IMG/VR virus record: IMGVR_UViG_3300009285_001379 | Coordinates: 1-41,812 of that record | Source of the DNA: a virus | Strand: one strand, 5' to 3' | Length of the DNA stretch: 41,812 bases | Shown: positions 3,821-28,937 of the stretch, one piece after another | Layout of the letters: the number at the start of each line of letters is the position of its first letter | How positions within the stretch are numbered: position 1 is the first letter of the stretch | Notes under the pieces: generated by a model | What the model saw: the letters and a program-made list of their open reading frames with translations, nothing else | What the model was told of the DNA's origin: nothing | Databases searched by the model: none | Program-made: the position numbers and the translations under genes

Positions 3821-4701
3821 TGCAACTCCATCCGCCCCGCTCGACCGATGCCCTCGAAACGGAGTTCGAGGCCGCGATCACGGGCTATCTATCCGCGCTC
3901 CGTCTCGCCATTGCCCGGCAGGTGTTGCCCCGGGTCGGGGAGTTGCTCGAGCGGTACGCGGCGCCGAGGTTTGACGACGCGGATGCCGGCAGGGTCCAGA
4001 TCGCGGGGCTCAACCTGGAGTTTCTCGAGATTTCGCGCACAGAGCTCGAGCAGTCCCTGCTGGACTTCGGCGCGCGGGTCGTCGACTTCGGCAATGAGTC
4101 GGCTCGGCGGCAGCTCGAGGCGGAGGTCCCGAAAGAAAAGCGGCGGCGGCTGATGGCTCTCGGGCTCGACACGCTCGAGCCATGGATGCTGAAGCGGGCG
4201 CGGGAGTGGGCCGCGCTCAACGCCGACTTGATCGTGAGCTTGCCTCAAGACCTGGCGCAACAGGTCGATAATCAGATCATGGCCGCGGTGCGAGACGGAA
4301 AACGACCTGAAACGCTGGCGGGAGAGCTCGAGCAGTGGCTGAGTGTTCCGCCGTCGCGGGCGCAACTGCTTGCGCGTGACCAGGTGGGGAAGCTCCAATC
4401 GGACATCATTGCGGGTCGACAGCAGGAACTCGGGATCGAGTCGTATTACTGGATGACTGCGAACGATCGTCGCGTTGTCGGCAGGCCTGGCGGGCTTTAC
4501 CCGAAAGGATCGCTGCGGCATCAGGACCACTACATCCGACGCGGGCGGCTGTTCGTTGCGAATGAAGGCCCACCGCTGGTGGAATTGGTCGATGGAAAGC
4601 GCGTCGTGCATGAGGATTGGACGGACGGGCACCCGGGGGATGGAATACAGTGCCGCTGCTGGAGGCGGCCGAACATTGACGGACTATTGAGGAGGCTTTG
4701 A
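3820..4701 (+). CDS. Phage Mu F-like minor head protein
   Basis: Minor capsid protein of the MuF/SPP1 gp7 family, thought to sit inside the prohead at the portal and aid morphogenesis. The C-terminal half carries the family signature: ARDQVGKLQSDI followed by Y-W-x5-DRRV, paired histidines, and a GIQCRCW motif close to the C-terminus. The ATG at 3820 is preferred over the TTG one codon earlier because it overlaps the portal stop (TGATG). The N-terminal half is helical and charged. Its stop overlaps the start of the endolysin gene, so the two are probably translationally coupled. Confidence 0.88.
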   Translation: MQLHPPRSTDALETEFEAAITGYLSALRLAIARQVLPRVGELLERYAAPRFDDADAGRVQIAGLNLEFLEISRTELEQSLLDFGARVVDFGNESARRQLEAEVPKEKRRRLMALGLDTLEPWMLKRAREWAALNADLIVSLPQDLAQQVDNQIMAAVRDGKRPETLAGELEQWLSVPPSRAQLLARDQVGKLQSDIIAGRQQELGIESYYWMTANDRRVVGRPGGLYPKGSLRHQDHYIRRGRLFVANEGPPLVELVDGKRVVHEDWTDGHPGDGIQCRCWRRPNIDGLLRRL

Positions 4702-5219: not shown

Positions 5220-5279
5220 TTTGTGTCGCGATTCACTCGCGGACTCGATAGGATAGGAGGGATAAATGGGAGGCGTCAA

Positions 5280-5591
5280 GTGGACGAAAAAATGCTCGAG
5301 TTGGCTAAAACATATGGTCCTTGGGCTACTATCTTGGTGGTGGTCGTTCTGGGCCGGCTCAACGCCATCTCGAGCGTGCTCGGGCGAATTGCTGACGCAT
5401 GGATTGATGGCATCCGAGTCCGAACCGACGCGGTTCGCGCGCGAACAGAACGCGATCGAGCCGAAACGCTGCTTAACCAGGCAGTCCTGCGTCAGTCGCA
5501 CAGGGAGAGGGCGAGCATTGAGGGCGTACCTAGATCCGGAGAGCGGCCAGACGTGGGACGACGTTCTGCCAGTTCTGGCGGCAAGCGCTGA
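5280..5591 (+). CDS. Small membrane protein, holin-like
   Basis: A 103-residue protein with one hydrophobic segment near the N-terminus (residues ~14-35, PWATILVVVVLGRL), then an Arg/Glu-rich amphipathic or coiled-coil region. The GTG at 5280 is chosen because GGGAGG lies 6 bases upstream; an ATG five codons in is the alternative. An ATG at 5266 in the +1 frame has its own upstream GGAGG, but its translation is not protein-like at first. Placement right after the CHAP endolysin suggests a holin or antiholin. No family was recognised, so this rests on topology and context. Its last 74 bases overlap the next gene. Confidence 0.5.
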   Translation: MDEKMLELAKTYGPWATILVVVVLGRLNAISSVLGRIADAWIDGIRVRTDAVRARTERDRAETLLNQAVLRQSHRERASIEGVPRSGERPDVGRRSASSGGKR

Positions 5592-5745
5592 TGATGCGCG
5601 TCGAAGGGCAAGCCGTGGCTACGCGATCCTGATCGCACTTCTGGCCGGCGCGATCCTCCTCAGTTGCCTCGTGTTCTGGCCGGTGCCAGATACGCGAGTC
5701 GAGGTCCCTGGGATCGCCAGATCTGCTATTGCTGGGCCGTGGTAG
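5518..5745 (+). CDS. Small single-pass membrane protein in the lysis cluster
   Basis: Encodes 75 residues: a soluble N-terminus (YLDPESGQTWDDVLPVL), then one strong transmembrane segment (~35-56, GYAILIALLAGAILLSCLVF) and a short tail. The TTG start is inferred from GGGAGAGG just upstream and from where protein-like sequence begins. It overlaps the preceding holin-like gene in a different frame, which resembles nested lysis genes in other phages, although no lipobox or spanin signature is present. It could be a second holin, an antiholin or an unrelated membrane protein. Confidence 0.45.
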   Translation: MRAYLDPESGQTWDDVLPVLAASADDARRRASRGYAILIALLAGAILLSCLVFWPVPDTRVEVPGIARSAIAGPW

Positions 5746-6037
5746 GCGCAGGGGTACGCATCGCGAAGCGGATCACGTCTCGCGCGCATTTCTCGAAGAC
5801 TCGAGCCGGACAGGTAACCCGGCCCGTGAAGCGCCCGTTTCTGTGCACGTCAAGCGCGGCGGCTGTGTGAATGATGAGGCCCTCCTCGGGCGGCATGTTC
5901 TCCGGCAGGCGCAACTCACCGTCCACCAGATGCGCCGAGTAGTCCACGTCATACACGTCACTGGCGCTGCGCTCGCGCTCAACCTGGCGCCAGTCGAACC
6001 CCTTGGTTTTCCACCATCGTTTTTCCGAATTCGTCAT
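5726..6037 (-). CDS. Hypothetical protein, 3' end of the reverse-strand modification cassette
   Basis: A 103-residue soluble protein, not recognised. It begins MTNSEKRWWKTKGFDW and has an acidic middle and a C-terminus rich in Arg/Val (GRFTGRVTCPARVFEKCARD). AGGAGA lies upstream of the ATG and the gene starts 4 bases after the Dam-like methylase stop, so it belongs to the same leftward operon. Its 3' end overlaps the convergent lysis gene by 20 bases. The reading frame has normal codon bias and the length is clean. Any link to DNA modification comes only from its position. Confidence 0.6.
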   Translation of the reverse strand: MTNSEKRWWKTKGFDWRQVERERSASDVYDVDYSAHLVDGELRLPENMPPEEGLIIHTAAALDVHRNGRFTGRVTCPARVFEKCARDVIRFAMRTPAPTTAQQ

Positions 6038-6040
6038 GAT

Positions 6041-7033
6041 CTATTCTCCTGAAAATAGGCCTCCCTGAACAACTCGTCCGACCCGCAGACAATGCGGATT
6101 GAACCACAACACCTCTCGAGCCGCATTCTCCCTGCCGCGACCTTCCCCCTGAGAGCCGAATCCACCGCGAGCTTTCCACGGCAAAGCAGTCCATCCGGGC
6201 ATCTCGTGTTCGCCCTCGTAGCCTGCCAGGCAGATCCGATACAGTCGGTCATTGCCTCGCTCGAGAGCCCATCGACGAACGTCGTGAGCGACGGACAGAT
6301 CCTCAGTCGAGTACAACGCCCTATCCCGGTTGGCCTCTGCGGAATACGGCGGGTCGAGAAACACAGCAGTCAACCCGTGTTTCGTAGTCACCGAATCCCC
6401 ACAAACCCGGGACCAGTCGCCAGAGCACACCCGGACGCCACGCAAACGCTCGGAAAGCGCGCGGAACCAATCGCGGATGAAGTCGCCCCTCCCCGCGTTG
6501 CCCAGGTGCGGGCGTTGGCGATTGATGCCCATCCCAGCGTTGCCGAGGTGTGGGAGTTGGCGATTCACCCCAGCACCGTCACGCTTTGCCCACGCTTCCC
6601 CAGTCCACTGCCACGGGCCTTTGCCTGCACACCAGCCGGAGCCGATCCATGAGCAGATACCCCAGCACCACCAGCCAGCAATCTGTGCGTCGAATCCGAG
6701 GGGGTCACCAAGGATGGACTCGAGCCGCTTGGTGCCATCAGTGATCAGCCAGTAGTGCCGGGATTCCAAGTCCGTCTCGTTTACAGGCCAGTCGCACCAC
6801 GCTGTCACGGCGTCAGAATCGAAATGGACCGCGCGCCAGAAATTGGCCACAAAGCGGTCTTTGTCGTTGATCGTTTCGACGCCTTCAAACGGAGTCGGAC
6901 GGGCCAACAGCACTGCGCCAGATCCAAAGAACGGCTCGATATAATTCCGCACGTAGCCGAAGCGCAGCCAGATCTCAGTGGCTACTGTGGATTTGCCACC
7001 GAACCAGGGAAATGGAGCCTGAAGCTCTACCAC
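6041..7033 (-). CDS. Dam-like N6-adenine DNA methyltransferase (D12 class)
   Basis: Transfers methyl from SAM to adenine N6 in a specific DNA site. The protein starts in APFPWFGGKS (residues 6-15), has the SAM-binding motif EPFFGSGAVLL (~33-43) and the catalytic DPPYS at 227-231. The GTG at 7033 is preferred: it overlaps the upstream methylase stop, has AGGG nearby, and puts the family's usual N-terminus at residue 1; an ATG at 7087 is possible. The target-recognition region holds a tandem duplication of a 14-residue unit (NRQxPHLGNAGxG). It is the downstream member of a four-methylase leftward operon. Specificity cannot be read from sequence. Confidence 0.88.
   Translation of the reverse strand: MVELQAPFPWFGGKSTVATEIWLRFGYVRNYIEPFFGSGAVLLARPTPFEGVETINDKDRFVANFWRAVHFDSDAVTAWCDWPVNETDLESRHYWLITDGTKRLESILGDPLGFDAQIAGWWCWGICSWIGSGWCAGKGPWQWTGEAWAKRDGAGVNRQLPHLGNAGMGINRQRPHLGNAGRGDFIRDWFRALSERLRGVRVCSGDWSRVCGDSVTTKHGLTAVFLDPPYSAEANRDRALYSTEDLSVAHDVRRWALERGNDRLYRICLAGYEGEHEMPGWTALPWKARGGFGSQGEGRGRENAAREVLWFNPHCLRVGRVVQGGLFSGE
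6495..6578 (-). repeat. 42-nt tandem duplication inside the Dam-like gene
   Basis: Two in-frame, diverged copies of a 42-base unit encode NRQLPHLGNAGMGI and NRQRPHLGNAGRGD. The GNAG-containing loop lies between the SAM-binding and catalytic motifs, where D12 enzymes hold their DNA-recognition region. Confidence 0.7.
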
Positions 7034-8646
7034 AACACACCCTGCATAGCCAGCAGCCTGCCCGCCGGCCTCGAGACTGTCACCCATTCCGACTGTTTCG
7101 CCCCGTCCCCGTCGTCGCCGGCCCAGAACCCGCTTTTCCGTTTCACCATGGCCCCGACGTCGTACCCGTGCCACCGCTGCCCCGTCGCCGCTTCCAGCTC
7201 TGCAGACAGGTTGCAGGACTCGGAAACGCCGACCACGACCTCGATGCCGTCTCGTTTCCCTGCCTCGAGCCAGCGCCGGCACAGCTCGAGCAGCGCCTGC
7301 CGGGTGAACGTGTCACCGTAGCCGGTCGATGTCGTTTTGCCCCCGTCGCCGTCCCGTCCGAGATACGGCGGGTCGATGTACACCACGCACCGGTACGGCC
7401 TCCCCGTCCACGGAAGCGCCGGGGGTAACGGAACATCCTCCTCTGGCACAAGCGACGCGTCGACAGGGAACAGGGATCCGGTTGGGAGGGATGAGAGGCG
7501 GGAAGCTATAGTGCTAGTAGCTATCGGCGAGCCGGCGTCGTAGTGGATGTTTGTCGGCGCGAATTCTTCGGGGATGGTTTCCGAGCGTCGGCCATCGCCG
7601 CGCAGTGCGTTCCATCCGCCGCGCATGTCTGGCACAACCGGCTTATTACCCCACTGATTCGCCTGCAAATACATCCACGTCGCCAGCACCTCAGGCACCA
7701 CGAGCCCCGCGTCAAGCCTCGTGACCAGCGCAGGCACGTCTGACCCCGGCAGGCTCGAGGCGAGTGTCCAGCGGGGATTCTGCCAGCCTCGAGCGTGCGT
7801 CCCGTCGTGTCCGCCGGTCGGGTCGAACTCATATCGAAACCCGTGGTCATGCCACCCGCCCTTGCCAGGCGTGACGGGTTTTCCGGCCGGCGCTTGAGAC
7901 TGCATCAGCATCCACGCCGCCAGCGTCGATGCAAGCCTCTCGGGAGTCACCAGGCCCGCGTCTATCCGGGTCACGATCGCCGGGGCGGACTTCGGTAGGG
8001 AGGCGAACTTCGCAGCCTCTGCCCAGCGGGGATTAAACCAACCTGCAAATTGCCCCGATGTATTGCCCATCGCTTGTTCCGGGCAAAAAGTGATCGTGCT
8101 CACCCGTGATTCGCGCATCATACCCCACGGATGTTGCCCGTCTGGCCACGGCACAACTGAACATCTTGAGAATGCCCGCGCCTGCAGGAAACCCCAGACC
8201 GCCGCCGCATCCTGCACTTCGGCCGGTATCGGCGCCTTGCGCAGTTCCTCCCAGAGCTGGCGAGCGTCCCGAGCCCCCGACCCGCCGCAGACAGGACACC
8301 CTACCACAAGACCCGTCTGAGTTGCGCACATCGCCGGATCGGGCTTCACCTCTCCAGCTCGAGCACGCGTGACCATGCCGGGGAGGCACGAAGGGCACGG
8401 GACCCACGCCGAGATAATCCGGGACACCTCTCGAGCGAGTTCAGGACAGGCACGGCAGAGTGCGTACAACCAGCAGCCCAAGTCCGAGTCGTTATTCCAC
8501 TCGAGCGCCACGTCTCGCGGGTGGTAGCCAAGGATGCCCTGGAGTGGCGCAGCGAAGCGCGTCTTGGCCCCGGTTCGAGACAGCGCCGGCTTATGCGCGA
8601 GGCCGTTGATGCCAACGAAGGGTTGGATGAGGATTGTGGAGATCAA
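7027..8646 (-). CDS. Large atypical DPPY DNA methyltransferase with inserted cysteine pairs and repeats
   Basis: Probable SAM-dependent adenine methyltransferase of 539 aa. The N-terminus reads MISTILIQPFVGING and leads to an ND motif (WNNDSD, 50-55) like the D12 class; the catalytic-type YIDPPYLG is far downstream (D425). Between them are two Cys pairs (C84/C87 and C117/C120, a likely zinc ribbon) and a ~55-residue repeat (about 202-260 and 287-339: GWxNPRW, VTRxDAGLVxPE, GKPVxP). The TTG start overlaps the preceding stop and has AGGGAG 6 bases upstream; the longer open frame before it is a shadow of the next gene. It could alternatively be a nucleotide- or base-modifying enzyme with a methylase-like core. 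Confidence 0.7.
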   Translation of the reverse strand: MISTILIQPFVGINGLAHKPALSRTGAKTRFAAPLQGILGYHPRDVALEWNNDSDLGCWLYALCRACPELAREVSRIISAWVPCPSCLPGMVTRARAGEVKPDPAMCATQTGLVVGCPVCGGSGARDARQLWEELRKAPIPAEVQDAAAVWGFLQARAFSRCSVVPWPDGQHPWGMMRESRVSTITFCPEQAMGNTSGQFAGWFNPRWAEAAKFASLPKSAPAIVTRIDAGLVTPERLASTLAAWMLMQSQAPAGKPVTPGKGGWHDHGFRYEFDPTGGHDGTHARGWQNPRWTLASSLPGSDVPALVTRLDAGLVVPEVLATWMYLQANQWGNKPVVPDMRGGWNALRGDGRRSETIPEEFAPTNIHYDAGSPIATSTIASRLSSLPTGSLFPVDASLVPEEDVPLPPALPWTGRPYRCVVYIDPPYLGRDGDGGKTTSTGYGDTFTRQALLELCRRWLEAGKRDGIEVVVGVSESCNLSAELEAATGQRWHGYDVGAMVKRKSGFWAGDDGDGAKQSEWVTVSRPAGRLLAMQGVLW

Positions 8647-9329
8647 AACAGACTCCCTTGTTTCGGGCTTATGGGTTTTATGACGAGTTCCACCGCGCCA
8701 TCGTGACCCCGTCGATACACCGCCCAACCATGATCTACCCCTGCAACCGAGAGCCGATAGCCGGTCAGCGTGGAAGCGTCGCGGACCACAACTATCGGTG
8801 TCTTTTGCCCCACACTCGAGGCCAGGATCAGTTTGCCGCCCACATCCACGACGTCTTCCGGGAGCACCTCGAAGGCAAACCGTTTCGGCGGCTGGATCCA
8901 TCGTTCGAGCCACACAGCCCGCGCGCCATTCTCGGCGCAGATGAATCCAAACCTCACCAGCACGACGACCTCGATCACTCCCGGCTGGGACCATGCCCAG
9001 CACATGAAATCGCCGCTGGTAAGCTGGTCATACGGCGGATTTGTGACGACCGTTGCCGGCTGGGTAATCCGCACGTCGCGGAAGTCCGCCATGGTGACCA
9101 TATCGTGCATCGGTCTGATATCCGAGCATTCGAACGTGCGCCCGTGACGACCAGCTACTGCCTGACCGATGGTCCATCCGTTGTAGCCGCAGGCACACGG
9201 ATCCACGATCAGCTGCCCGGCAGGTGTCCAGTGATTGAGCAGGTAGTCCACGCCCCACCGAGGCGTGAGGTACGTATCCCCCTCTATCGTGTCCGCCGAG
9301 CGTTTATTGAGACCCTGCAATCCTGCCAT
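8643..9329 (-). CDS. SAM-dependent DNA methyltransferase with NPPY motif
   Basis: A compact 228-aa amino-methyltransferase (N6-adenine or N4-cytosine). SAM-binding motif I is IVDPCACGYNGW (41-52) and the catalytic NPPY is at 97-100 in TVVTNPPYDQ. There is no clear separate recognition domain, so it may need a partner, use a short specificity loop, or be of the phage type that methylates broadly. The ATG at 9329 follows a GTGAGGG ribosome site; the longer frame is a shadow of the C5 methylase. It overlaps its neighbours at both ends by a few to tens of bases, consistent with a coupled operon. Confidence 0.8.
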   Translation of the reverse strand: MAGLQGLNKRSADTIEGDTYLTPRWGVDYLLNHWTPAGQLIVDPCACGYNGWTIGQAVAGRHGRTFECSDIRPMHDMVTMADFRDVRITQPATVVTNPPYDQLTSGDFMCWAWSQPGVIEVVVLVRFGFICAENGARAVWLERWIQPPKRFAFEVLPEDVVDVGGKLILASSVGQKTPIVVVRDASTLTGYRLSVAGVDHGWAVYRRGHDGAVELVIKPISPKQGSLF

Positions 9330-10762
9330 AAATTTGCCCTCACCAACGCCTCTGCCACTGGCGGGCAGACAGCACCGCCTATCCGCGCGATCTGTTCGCC
9401 GCGCGGTCCCTCGAGCCGGTAGCTGTCGGGAAACCCCATCGTTCGAGCGAGCTCCCGTGGCTGCAACATCCGCATTCCGATGTCGTAAACGACCATTGCC
9501 TCTCCTCCAATGTCGACAGTCACGAGTCCGAACCGATCCACCGTCGTCACAGTCCGCAGCGGGTCGCTCAACGCCTGCCCGAGCCCCTGCCCGTAGTAGG
9601 AGGTCAGGAATGCATACACTTGACGAGTTCCATCTCGCACTGTGACGCTCAGCCTTGCCTCGCACAGTGTGAAGTGCTCCCGGCATGTCACGGTGTCCAT
9701 AGGTGACTCGAGCGACGTCCCCACCGAATCACCATTGTGTTTAGCCAGCCAGGCCGTCACAAGCCCCAGGTGCGCGCCACACGTCACGGTCGGCAGCGGC
9801 TGCGAGATGTCCGAGCCGCTCCCGGTGCCGTAAAACCTCGTGATGTGGGGGACGATGAGCCCGTGTTTACACCCGCCAGCTACTACCGTTCCGAGCGGCG
9901 CATCGATGTCCAGGATTCGCGGCGTCTGCCCTGGTCGCTCTCCATAGCCCGTCTGAATGAGGTATGGCCTCGGACTTTCGAGCACGAATCGCACCAGACC
10001 GGCAGCTATCCGACGCATCGTCGCGTCGGCAAGAGGCCTGTGGACGTGAGCGGCTCGAGCTTCCTCCGGAGAGAGAAAAATAGACGGGCAAGGGATCGAC
10101 CAGTCGATGCACTCTACCGCAGTCCGCCACGGTTGCGCGCGTCCCGGTCCGTGCGTCGGCTCAGGCCAGCGGATCGGCAGTCCATCCCGGCGGGCGATCA
10201 GGTAGAGGCGTTTCCGGCTGGTTGGCGCTCCGTAGTCGGCAGCGACCAGAGACCGCCATTCGACCGTGTACCCGTCCTCTCGAAGCCGTGAGACCCACGC
10301 GCGGAAATCTTCGCCCTTGCGATCCCTTATCGGCTGTCCGGCTTCGTCGACCGGGCCCCACCCCTCGAACTCGCAGACGTTCTCGAGCATGATCACTCGG
10401 GGCCGGACTGAGCCCGCCCGCGTCCACTCGAACACTACGTCGGCAGTCGAGCGCAGCCCGGCATCTCGAGGCTTTCCTCCTTTCGCTCGAGAATGGTGCG
10501 TGCAGTCGGGAGACAGCCATAGCAGATCGATCCGCCTGCCTCGAGACGCCCGGAACACATCCACGTCGAAAACGTCCTGGGGTATGTGTAGCGTCGTCGG
10601 GTGATTGAGTTTATGGAGCGCCAGCGCGTGCGGGTTGTGGTTTACCGCCACAAGCGGGCTTGCTCCCGTCGCTCTCCTGATGCCCTCGCATGAGCCACCG
10701 AGGCCGCAAAAAAGGACGGCGGAAGCGGGCTTGTCGAGCCGGCCAAATAGGGTTGGCGTCAC
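9284..10762 (-). CDS. C5-cytosine DNA methyltransferase
   Basis: Dcm-type enzyme of 492 aa that methylates cytosine C5 through a catalytic cysteine. Visible motifs in order: SAM-binding FCGLGGSCEG (18-27), catalytic SPDC with Cys87 (the phage-type variant of PPC), ENV at 127-129, SRKRLYLIA (variant of the QxRxR motif), then a long target-recognition region with repeated PLPTVT / PLRTVT blocks, and the C-terminal motifs RMLQPRELARTMGFP and GGAVCPPVAEAL. The GTG start has AGAGGAC upstream and overlaps the small HTH gene by 4 bases. The repeated PLxTVT blocks are common in phage Dcm proteins. Confidence 0.92.
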   Translation of the reverse strand: MTPTLFGRLDKPASAVLFCGLGGSCEGIRRATGASPLVAVNHNPHALALHKLNHPTTLHIPQDVFDVDVFRASRGRRIDLLWLSPDCTHHSRAKGGKPRDAGLRSTADVVFEWTRAGSVRPRVIMLENVCEFEGWGPVDEAGQPIRDRKGEDFRAWVSRLREDGYTVEWRSLVAADYGAPTSRKRLYLIARRDGLPIRWPEPTHGPGRAQPWRTAVECIDWSIPCPSIFLSPEEARAAHVHRPLADATMRRIAAGLVRFVLESPRPYLIQTGYGERPGQTPRILDIDAPLGTVVAGGCKHGLIVPHITRFYGTGSGSDISQPLPTVTCGAHLGLVTAWLAKHNGDSVGTSLESPMDTVTCREHFTLCEARLSVTVRDGTRQVYAFLTSYYGQGLGQALSDPLRTVTTVDRFGLVTVDIGGEAMVVYDIGMRMLQPRELARTMGFPDSYRLEGPRGEQIARIGGAVCPPVAEALVRANLWQDCRVSINARRTR

Positions 10763-26356: not shown

Positions 26357-27523
26357 GTGGGCGTAACAGCTCAGGGCTACAGCTACACGGATTTGCCGAC
26401 GAAGCTGGCTGCGCTTCGACAGAAGCTCTTGCCGCCCGGGCTCACCTTTGCGCCGGGGACGCCGGAATCAGAGCTTACCTACCGGCTGGCGGAAGCGATT
26501 GACGACCAGGCGCTCGAGGTGCGCGATCTGGCTGCACTCCTGGCTCCGTCACAACGGGTTGGAATCTGGCTCGACGACGCGGCGGCGATGGTCGGTATTG
26601 CGAGGGGGACGGGCACACGCTCGAGCGTGGTACTGACCGTGACGGGAGCTCCGAGCACCTTTGTGCTGGCCGGGGCGATCGTCGTGACGAATGCGGACGG
26701 GATCGCCTTTACCTCGCAGAACGACGTCACGCTTTCTCTGGGGGGCGCGGGCTTCGTGACGGCGACGGCTGCGCAGGTCGGTCCGATTTCGGCGCCAGCA
26801 ACAACTCTGCTCAAGACGACCGGGCTGCCAGCCGGAGTGACGCAGGTCACGAACGCAAGCGATGCTGTCCTGGGGCTGGCGGCGGACACGGACTCGAGCC
26901 TGTGGACCGCAATGAGGGACCGGATAGCCTACGCGGGAGCAACGACCTATGACGCGCTCTGGCTGGCGCTGTACGGGTCCGGATCGCTGGCGGGCTGCTC
27001 GGACGTGCGGATCTTCTGGAACGATACCGGGGTGGCCGATGTGGACGGGAGGCCGGCCGGGTCGATCGAGGTCGTGACAATCGGGGGCAACGCGGACGTG
27101 ATCGCTCAGGCGATCTGGGCGCATAGCTGTGGACTCGAGCGGGTCTCGAACGGGCAGACGGCGACCACGACAGTTACTGACGCGGCGGGTGAAACTCATG
27201 ATATAATCCACTCGTATGCCTCAGAGGTCGTGATCTCCATCAATATCACCGTCTTGACCGGCTCCGGCTGGCCGAAAACGGCGGCGGTGGGGATCGCGGC
27301 GGTCAAAGCGGCCATCGTGGCGTACTTTCTCACGCTCCGGATCGGCGGGGTGATTCGCGACCTCTACGTCAAGCGGGAGGTCGCGGAAGTCGCGGGCGTG
27401 GTCGGCGTAACGGTGCTCACGATAGACGCAGACGGGGCCGGGTTCGTCCCGGGTGACTACACTCCGCGGTCGTGGCAGATCTGCCGGGTGATAGCCTCGA
27501 GGATCAACGTGACGGTGACTTGA
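26357..27523 (+). CDS. Baseplate J-like protein
   Basis: A 388-aa baseplate wedge protein of the gpJ/gp47/T4 gp6 type. Family-like features: an N-terminal helical region (TPESELTYRLAEAIDDQALEVRDL), an SQRVGIWLDDAAAMVGIARG segment, a beta domain, then the characteristic C-terminal region with helices around VGIAAVKAAIVAYFLTLRIGGVIRDLYV. GAGGTGAT lies upstream of the GTG start. It forms the iris ring of the baseplate. The next gene follows at a short distance. Confidence 0.8.
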   Translation: MGVTAQGYSYTDLPTKLAALRQKLLPPGLTFAPGTPESELTYRLAEAIDDQALEVRDLAALLAPSQRVGIWLDDAAAMVGIARGTGTRSSVVLTVTGAPSTFVLAGAIVVTNADGIAFTSQNDVTLSLGGAGFVTATAAQVGPISAPATTLLKTTGLPAGVTQVTNASDAVLGLAADTDSSLWTAMRDRIAYAGATTYDALWLALYGSGSLAGCSDVRIFWNDTGVADVDGRPAGSIEVVTIGGNADVIAQAIWAHSCGLERVSNGQTATTTVTDAAGETHDIIHSYASEVVISINITVLTGSGWPKTAAVGIAAVKAAIVAYFLTLRIGGVIRDLYVKREVAEVAGVVGVTVLTIDADGAGFVPGDYTPRSWQICRVIASRINVTVT

Positions 27524-27538: not shown

Positions 27539-27811
27539 ATGATGGATACTCTGAGGATGTGCGCCTTCGGGGATGAGCTCAACGGGCTCCTGGCTGAGTT
27601 GCGGGCATTGCCTCCCGAGGCGGTGCTGAGCGACTCGGGGCGGCTGGTGCTGCTCGAGTGCCTGGCCATCGTCGAAGAGATAGCCGATGCCGTTCGCGCG
27701 CTGTCTCTGGCGGGTGTCCTGCCTGGTTGGGTTGGGCGAATCCTGGCGCCGCTCTTGGGGCTGGTGGCGGCGGCAATCCGGGAGAGGGTCGAAGATGGCG
27801 TTGGAAATTAA
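27539..27811 (+). CDS. Small helical protein, unknown
   Basis: A ~90-aa protein with a Leu/Ala-rich helical composition (LLECLAIVEEIADAVRALSL) and a hydrophobic C-terminal segment WVGRILAPLLGLVAAAIRE. The start is uncertain: ATG at 27539 is taken, ATG 27542 and GTG 27536 being close alternatives. It overlaps the start of the Mom-like gene by 17 bases, as Com overlaps Mom in phage Mu, but it has no cysteines and so is not Com. Its function is unknown. Confidence 0.5.
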   Translation: MMDTLRMCAFGDELNGLLAELRALPPEAVLSDSGRLVLLECLAIVEEIADAVRALSLAGVLPGWVGRILAPLLGLVAAAIRERVEDGVGN

Positions 27812-28278
27812 GGTCGCCAGCTATACCGCCTCCGTTCGTCGCTGGCTGGCGCGAACGGACCACTACTTGAAGAATGCCCCCCCCGGCTGTTTTTTTTGCC
27901 GTCGCGGTGTTGGATGGGTGGCAGTTGCGCGGTCTTTGCCTGGCGGGTCGACCGGTGGCTCGAATGCTGGCACAGGATGGCTCTGTCGGAGAGGTGACCA
28001 GGATGTTTCTCGAGCCGGGACTTCCGCACGGCACGGCAAGCGCGGTGCTTCGATTCGCAGCCGACGAGGCACGGCGGCGCGGAATGGAACGGATGATCGC
28101 CTATCACGACAGAACCCGGCACACCGGGTGCATTTACCGGAAGGCGGGCTTTCGGAAGGATGGTTTGGCCGGTCCGAAAGGCGGATCGTGGGGAACCCGT
28201 GAAGGGCGTGCGGAAACGCAGAACACGCCTAAAAGGCGATGGGTGTTGGACTTGATGGCGTTGAGGGATGTGTTGTAA
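27795..28278 (+). pseudogene. Mom-like DNA modification gene interrupted at a C8/T8 tract
   Basis: The gene begins at ATG 27795 (GAGAGGG upstream) with MALEIKVASYTASVRRWLARTDHYLK and is then cut by a frame change at AATG-C8-GGCTG-T8-GCC (27876-27897). Removing one base from either tract joins it to the +1 frame, which reads PPAVFFAVAVLDGWQL, GRPVARM, EVTRMFL and RHTGCIYRKAGFRKDG, ending 28278. This pattern matches Mom/XF1762-like GNAT-fold proteins; Mom changes adenine to N6-acetamido-adenine and blocks restriction. As written it yields a 135-aa frameshifted product, or an N-truncated protein from ATG 27874. It could be a sequence error, a decayed gene or a slippage switch. Confidence 0.6.
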
Positions 28279-28937
28279 TGGCCTATGAAACCGACATCGA
28301 CGCTCGAGCAATGGGGCTGCTGCCCTGGCAGTATCGGCAGGTGGCCGATCTGGCGTTGCTGTTCGTCGGGTGCTGGGCTCCGGAGTTGCAGGCGCTCGAA
28401 GACGATATCGATGCGTTGAAGTCGACGCAATGGCTTTGGACCACTGCAACCGGAGTGTGGCTCGACGCCTGGGGCGAGCTGGCGCAACTGCCGAGGCCGG
28501 ACGGGCCGGCGTATGAGGATGACGATGTCTACCGGCGGGCGATTGCGGCGCGATGGGCGTCTCGTCGTTCGTTGGGGGATGCGAATTCCCTGATCAAGAT
28601 CGGCGCGGCGCTGTTGGGTCTGGCGCCTGCCTCGAGCGGCATCCACGTCGGGGAGTGGGGCGCGTGGACGCTCTATCTCGATATGCCATCGACTCCGCAG
28701 GCGGAAGAGCGGGCGGTCATGGGCGAGGTGTTCGGCGGCGGGGCGCGGCTGGGGATCTCGCTCGTCGTGACGGTGCCGATCCTGGGGTCGGGGATGTTCG
28801 GCCAGCAGGTCACGCTGGCCCTTCGAGAGGCGGCGGCGCATGCCAGGCACGATGACGTATTTGAGATCGTGCCCGAGTGGCTTTTCATGGATCGACTTCG
28901 GGCCGGGCACTATACGGCCAACACGTTTGGAATCTGA
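28278..28937 (+). CDS. Baseplate wedge protein, gpI / DUF2612-like
   Basis: A 219-aa protein following gpJ as gpI does in P2-like phages. The N-terminus MAYETDIDARAMGLLPWQYR leads to a helical region with ALEDDIDALKSTQWLWTTATGVWLDAWGELAQLPR, a pattern found in DUF2612 tail proteins. It presumably links the wedge to the fibres. The ATG overlaps the Mom-like stop (TAATG). The start and stop agree with the neighbours; the function is inferred from order and composition. Confidence 0.62.
   Translation: MAYETDIDARAMGLLPWQYRQVADLALLFVGCWAPELQALEDDIDALKSTQWLWTTATGVWLDAWGELAQLPRPDGPAYEDDDVYRRAIAARWASRRSLGDANSLIKIGAALLGLAPASSGIHVGEWGAWTLYLDMPSTPQAEERAVMGEVFGGGARLGISLVVTVPILGSGMFGQQVTLALREAAAHARHDDVFEIVPEWLFMDRLRAGHYTANTFGI

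Follow-up and report, generated by a model that had tools for sequence, protein, structure and literature searches.

A Mom/XF1762-family gene of a contractile-tailed phage with a one-base frame break in a homopolymer region and a possible leaky off-state

Mom-family DNA-modification enzymes are a means by which phages hide their DNA from bacterial restriction. The family includes the Mom protein of phage Mu (PF25680), for which PDB entry 8bv8 describes an inactive mutant with alanine at S124; in Mu the mom gene is overlapped by com, and the product of the latter carries a zinc finger with four cysteines. For the XF1762 family (NF045478) no published function was found in the literature searched. 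Homopolymers within DNA-modification genes have been described in two further settings. In phasevarions, the frame set by such a run turns a DNA methyltransferase gene on or off. In Escherichia coli, RNA polymerase slips on runs from T7 upward, and deletes one U on T8 at a frequency of ~10% in reporters; in a DNA methyltransferase gene, rescue of a +1 mutant on T8 was observed as well (PMC6260861). The M2.MboII methyltransferase gene of that study resembles the one described here in that the surplus T of a T8 run puts a modification gene out of frame and a one-U deletion is needed, but it is a laboratory construct in E. coli.

The window that we analyzed comprises 41,812 bases and is a single record of an uncultivated virus (IMGVR_UViG_3300009285_001379). 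Its genes with family matches include those for terminase, portal, sheath, tape-measure, and baseplate proteins, which together indicate a contractile-tailed phage. The Mom-like gene lies on the plus strand between two baseplate genes of the same strand, a J-like wedge gene upstream (26357–27523; PHROG 6, 111.8 bits) and a second gene downstream (28278–28937) whose ATG overlaps the TAA of the Mom-like gene in the sequence TAATG. The first 17 nt of the Mom-like gene are shared with a plus-strand open reading frame (ORF) of 90 aa without a family match (27539–27811), an arrangement that recalls the com–mom overlap of Mu; this ORF, however, encodes just two cysteines. The locus differs from Mu in its position between baseplate genes and in having no Com-like ORF upstream. 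Homologues with recognized neighbors adjoin helicase, primase, RusA, or MazG genes and no baseplate genes, and the codon usage of the Mom-like gene is an outlier; these two observations suggest that the gene was relocated into the tail operon of this phage. Elsewhere in the window, an intact C5 cytosine methyltransferase gene (9284–10762; 44% identity to phage enzymes over 94%) is a second DNA-modification gene of the phage, and the ~4 kb between it and an endolysin gene (5223–9283) have no recognized gene and a weak codon-position signal. At the contig end (40741–41812), a minus-strand helicase is represented by its C-terminal part only and abuts a frame on the plus strand that encodes the RsmE-like motif LIGPEGGF (PF04452, 20.8 bits, under the cut-off); this end may be a host junction or chimeric.

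In the window consensus the Mom-like gene does not form a single ORF, whereas all 11 full-length homologues that we recovered from viral contigs are uninterrupted. Its N-terminal part, MALEIKVASYTASVRRWLARTDHYLKNAPPGCFFC, was delimited by alignment with these homologues (27795–27899, frame 0) and covers β1, α1, the HY motif, and the PPG loop; a Shine–Dalgarno-like sequence, GGGAGAGGG (27780–27788), lies 6 nt 5′ of the ATG at 27795. The remainder (27898–28278, reading AVAVLDGW...MALRDVL, with its stop at 28276–28278) is offset by +1 from frame 0 and contains no further break, and the base composition by codon position changes to the +1 frame after the break. Unshifted translation yields a product of 135 aa (27795–28202), of which only the first 35 are genuine Mom. 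The initial annotation had described a Mom/XF1762-like gene whose two parts fall into different frames through one base in a homopolymer region, and this description agrees both with the two frames and with the family scores. Taken alone, the C-terminal part scored 49.5 bits against XF1762, 51.8 bits against the PHROG Mom-like family, and 17.3 bits against Pfam Mom, under both the XF1762 equivalog cut-off of 50 bits and the Pfam gathering score of 27.1 bits, and it had no phage match at 1e-5. The read-through protein passed both cut-offs, with 52.6 bits for XF1762 (NF045478) and 29.9 bits for Mom (PF25680), and its residues 1–149 aligned without interruption with Paenibacillus phage proteins that are encoded in a single frame, in keeping with the annotation's further claim that the remainder is well preserved and joins into one smooth protein.

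Comparison with Mu Mom is consistent with this assignment. An AlphaFold model of the read-through protein (pLDDT 77) has the strand-helix order of a GNAT fold, and its best match in the PDB is Mu Mom (8bv8; E 1e-6, TM 0.57). The HY of Mu Mom (H58-Y59) corresponds to H23-Y24 in frame 0, whereas the equivalents of S124, D149, and Y159 are all kept in the +1 frame; S82, which aligns with S124, is invariant in the subfamily. The full residue set is found on neither half alone. An E-x-x-R motif is likewise shared, although the window protein is only ~18% identical to Mu Mom, much shorter, and out of frame here. By sequence, the window protein aligns weakly with Mu Mom (hhalign probability 1.6%), and the residue mapping thus rests on the conserved pattern together with the predicted fold. 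Judged from these similarities, the split gene is a single Mom/XF1762-family gene with a putative role in adenine modification.

We then asked where the frame breaks by omitting a single base at every position in turn and scoring the resulting protein against a profile of nine homologues. Two runs lie in this region, C8 (27877–27884), which in frame 0 encodes the PP of a conserved PPPG loop, and T8 (27890–27897). Joining at T8 gave 222.8 bits and at the CC at 27899–27900 gave 224.2 bits, compared with 216.0 bits at C8, 183.5 bits for the C-terminal part alone, and 36.8 bits for the frame-0 product; a join at T8 or directly after it therefore outscores C8 by ~7–8 bits, and the optimum is flat, with 27898–27905 within ~4 bits of the top. 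The conserved PPPG loop serves to locate the break more closely. The homologue consensus in this region is HYL(D)NPPPG(C/A)xx(A/C)xxV, and since all 11 homologues carry PPPG(C/A)-x-x-(A/C), the gene appears to be in frame 0 right through C8, with the break at or after T8. The frame-0 reading through C8 up to T8, HYLKNAPPGCFF, agrees with the conserved G and C. At the break the homologues read GC(L/F)(F/Y)A(V)xV, with DHYLNNAPPGCLFAVGV in homologue L029 and GCLYAVAV in L010, and the reading obtained by joining at T8, DHYLKNAPPGCFFAVAV, is close to both; GCFFAVAV fits. Given the homologue profile and readings, and given that T8 is a long run, the likeliest site is T8, a slip slightly 3′ of the run being the alternative. 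The proposal that removing one base from either C8 or T8 would join the halves is thus supported for T8 but not for C8: the C8 join (APPAVFFAV) conflicts with the frame-0 residues, G and C/A, that homologues keep after C8, and C8 is probably not where the shift occurred. A larger deletion that removed part of the loop following β2 and shifted the frame is possible but not needed; this loop is ~12 residues longer in most homologues, but it is similarly short in the Paenibacillus proteins.

Our favored explanation, to which we give roughly even credence, is that a Mom/XF1762-family gene acquired into the baseplate operon carries an accidental and recent T7-to-T8 insertion that leaves it off but leaky. 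An ancestral T7 would have gained one T, placing the gene out of frame; faithful transcripts would then give the dead 135-aa product, Mom-like for 35 residues only, while the full enzyme of 160 aa would come from a minority of transcripts in which RNA polymerase had omitted one U, and the same slippage during replication could revert the insertion. An accidental, recent mutation is the most likely origin of the insertion. If real, the T8 allele is probably leaky, provided that the polymerase of the host is similar to the E. coli enzyme, because exactly such a geometry has been measured (PMC6260861). Slippage at T8 is plausible on these published rates, but this holds just as much for an accidental insertion. 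No relative closer than ~65% was found in our scans of genome collections, viral sequences, plasmids, and phages, and the T7 state was not found in a close relative; nine of the 11 homologues are 53–64% identical where aligned. Pattern matches L019–L023 were rejected as unrelated. The initial annotation had also raised the possibility of a shorter product from an internal ATG at 27874. The corresponding ORF (134 aa, 27874–28278, plus strand) lacks β1, α1, and the HY that is shared with Mu Mom, and no Shine–Dalgarno-like sequence precedes it; it is unlikely to be the active form.

Among the main readings, we hold accidental insertion with leakage to be the likeliest, followed by an error in the consensus and then by an evolved switch. 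An assembly or consensus error, with a true sequence of T7 and an intact gene, is in our estimation unlikely, but far from negligible. The window is an uncultivated virus contig with a right end that is possibly chimeric, the break falls in a run of the kind in which length errors readily occur, the remainder of the gene looks maintained, as do the tight overlaps at its two ends with the neighboring genes, and all homologues are intact. Nevertheless, short-read platforms normally read eight-base runs correctly, and the terminase, portal, methyltransferase, sheath, tape measure, hub, and wedge genes are each open in one frame, indicating that indel errors are not common in the window.

Another scenario, which we regard as improbable, is an evolved switch in which slippage at T8, possibly with the involvement of C8, would gate Mom expression, either during replication (phase variation) or as programmed slippage in transcription. 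The 41.8 kb contain no homopolymers of at least 8 nt other than C8 and T8, which are separated by 5 nt at the break. As dinucleotide shuffles of the window predict 8.4 C8 runs and 0.11 T8 runs, C8 is unremarkable by itself and T8 is mildly unusual; T8 occurs once in ~370 kb of related records. The codon choices TGT TTT TTT and GCC CCC CCC are uncommon in the window (0.044 and 0.006), and the E. coli rate of deletion slippage on T8 noted above is also in line with a switch. In addition, the Mom-like gene of the close homologue L010 contains an in-frame G8 (4095–4102), the only G8 of this 45.5-kb record, 10–18 nt downstream of the position matching T8; from G8/C8 counts, we estimate the chance of such a match among 11 homologues at ~1%, although the coincidence was spotted and judged post hoc. 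Against a switch, the look-up of the tract in related phages that the initial annotation had proposed found C8/T8 in none of the 11 full-length homologues; those other than L010 have no run of 7 or more in their Mom-like genes, and all are in the on state. C8 lies within a frame that homologues conserve, eight bases fall short of the A/T run length of 10 that served as cut-off for phase variation in Campylobacter, and the downstream RNA has no unusual fold, being no more stable than shuffles (z = +1.0). In comparison with phasevarion methyltransferases, the run is short and not conserved, and it is known from one consensus sequence. A broader proposal, somewhat more doubtful still, is that Mom-family genes of such phages carry contingency tracts near β strand 2, where slippage in replication or transcription sets a low or mixed enzyme level and replaces the Com control of Mu; C8/T8 in the window would then possibly represent the off state and G8 in L010 the on state.

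It is very unlikely that the gene is a fully dead pseudogene, without functional output and heading for loss. It is out of frame, in a foreign context given that its homologues lie among replication genes, and an outlier in codon usage, yet it carries no other lesion, and the deviations A28 and A59 of the window protein recur in the intact homologues L029 and L033. We find programmed +1 ribosomal frameshifting barely credible: CCC-CCC-G and UUU-UGC would both shift to the required frame, but neither site is conserved in homologues, the A site holds no stop codon, and the downstream RNA shows the same z = +1.0 against shuffles; −1 frameshifting at T8 was rejected because it yields the third frame rather than +1.

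Should the extra base prove to be a sequencing error, a diverged and mostly uncharacterized Mom subfamily would still be gained from the finding. If the T8 state is real, this gene would be a natural case in which polymerase slippage possibly supplies a little of a DNA-modification enzyme.
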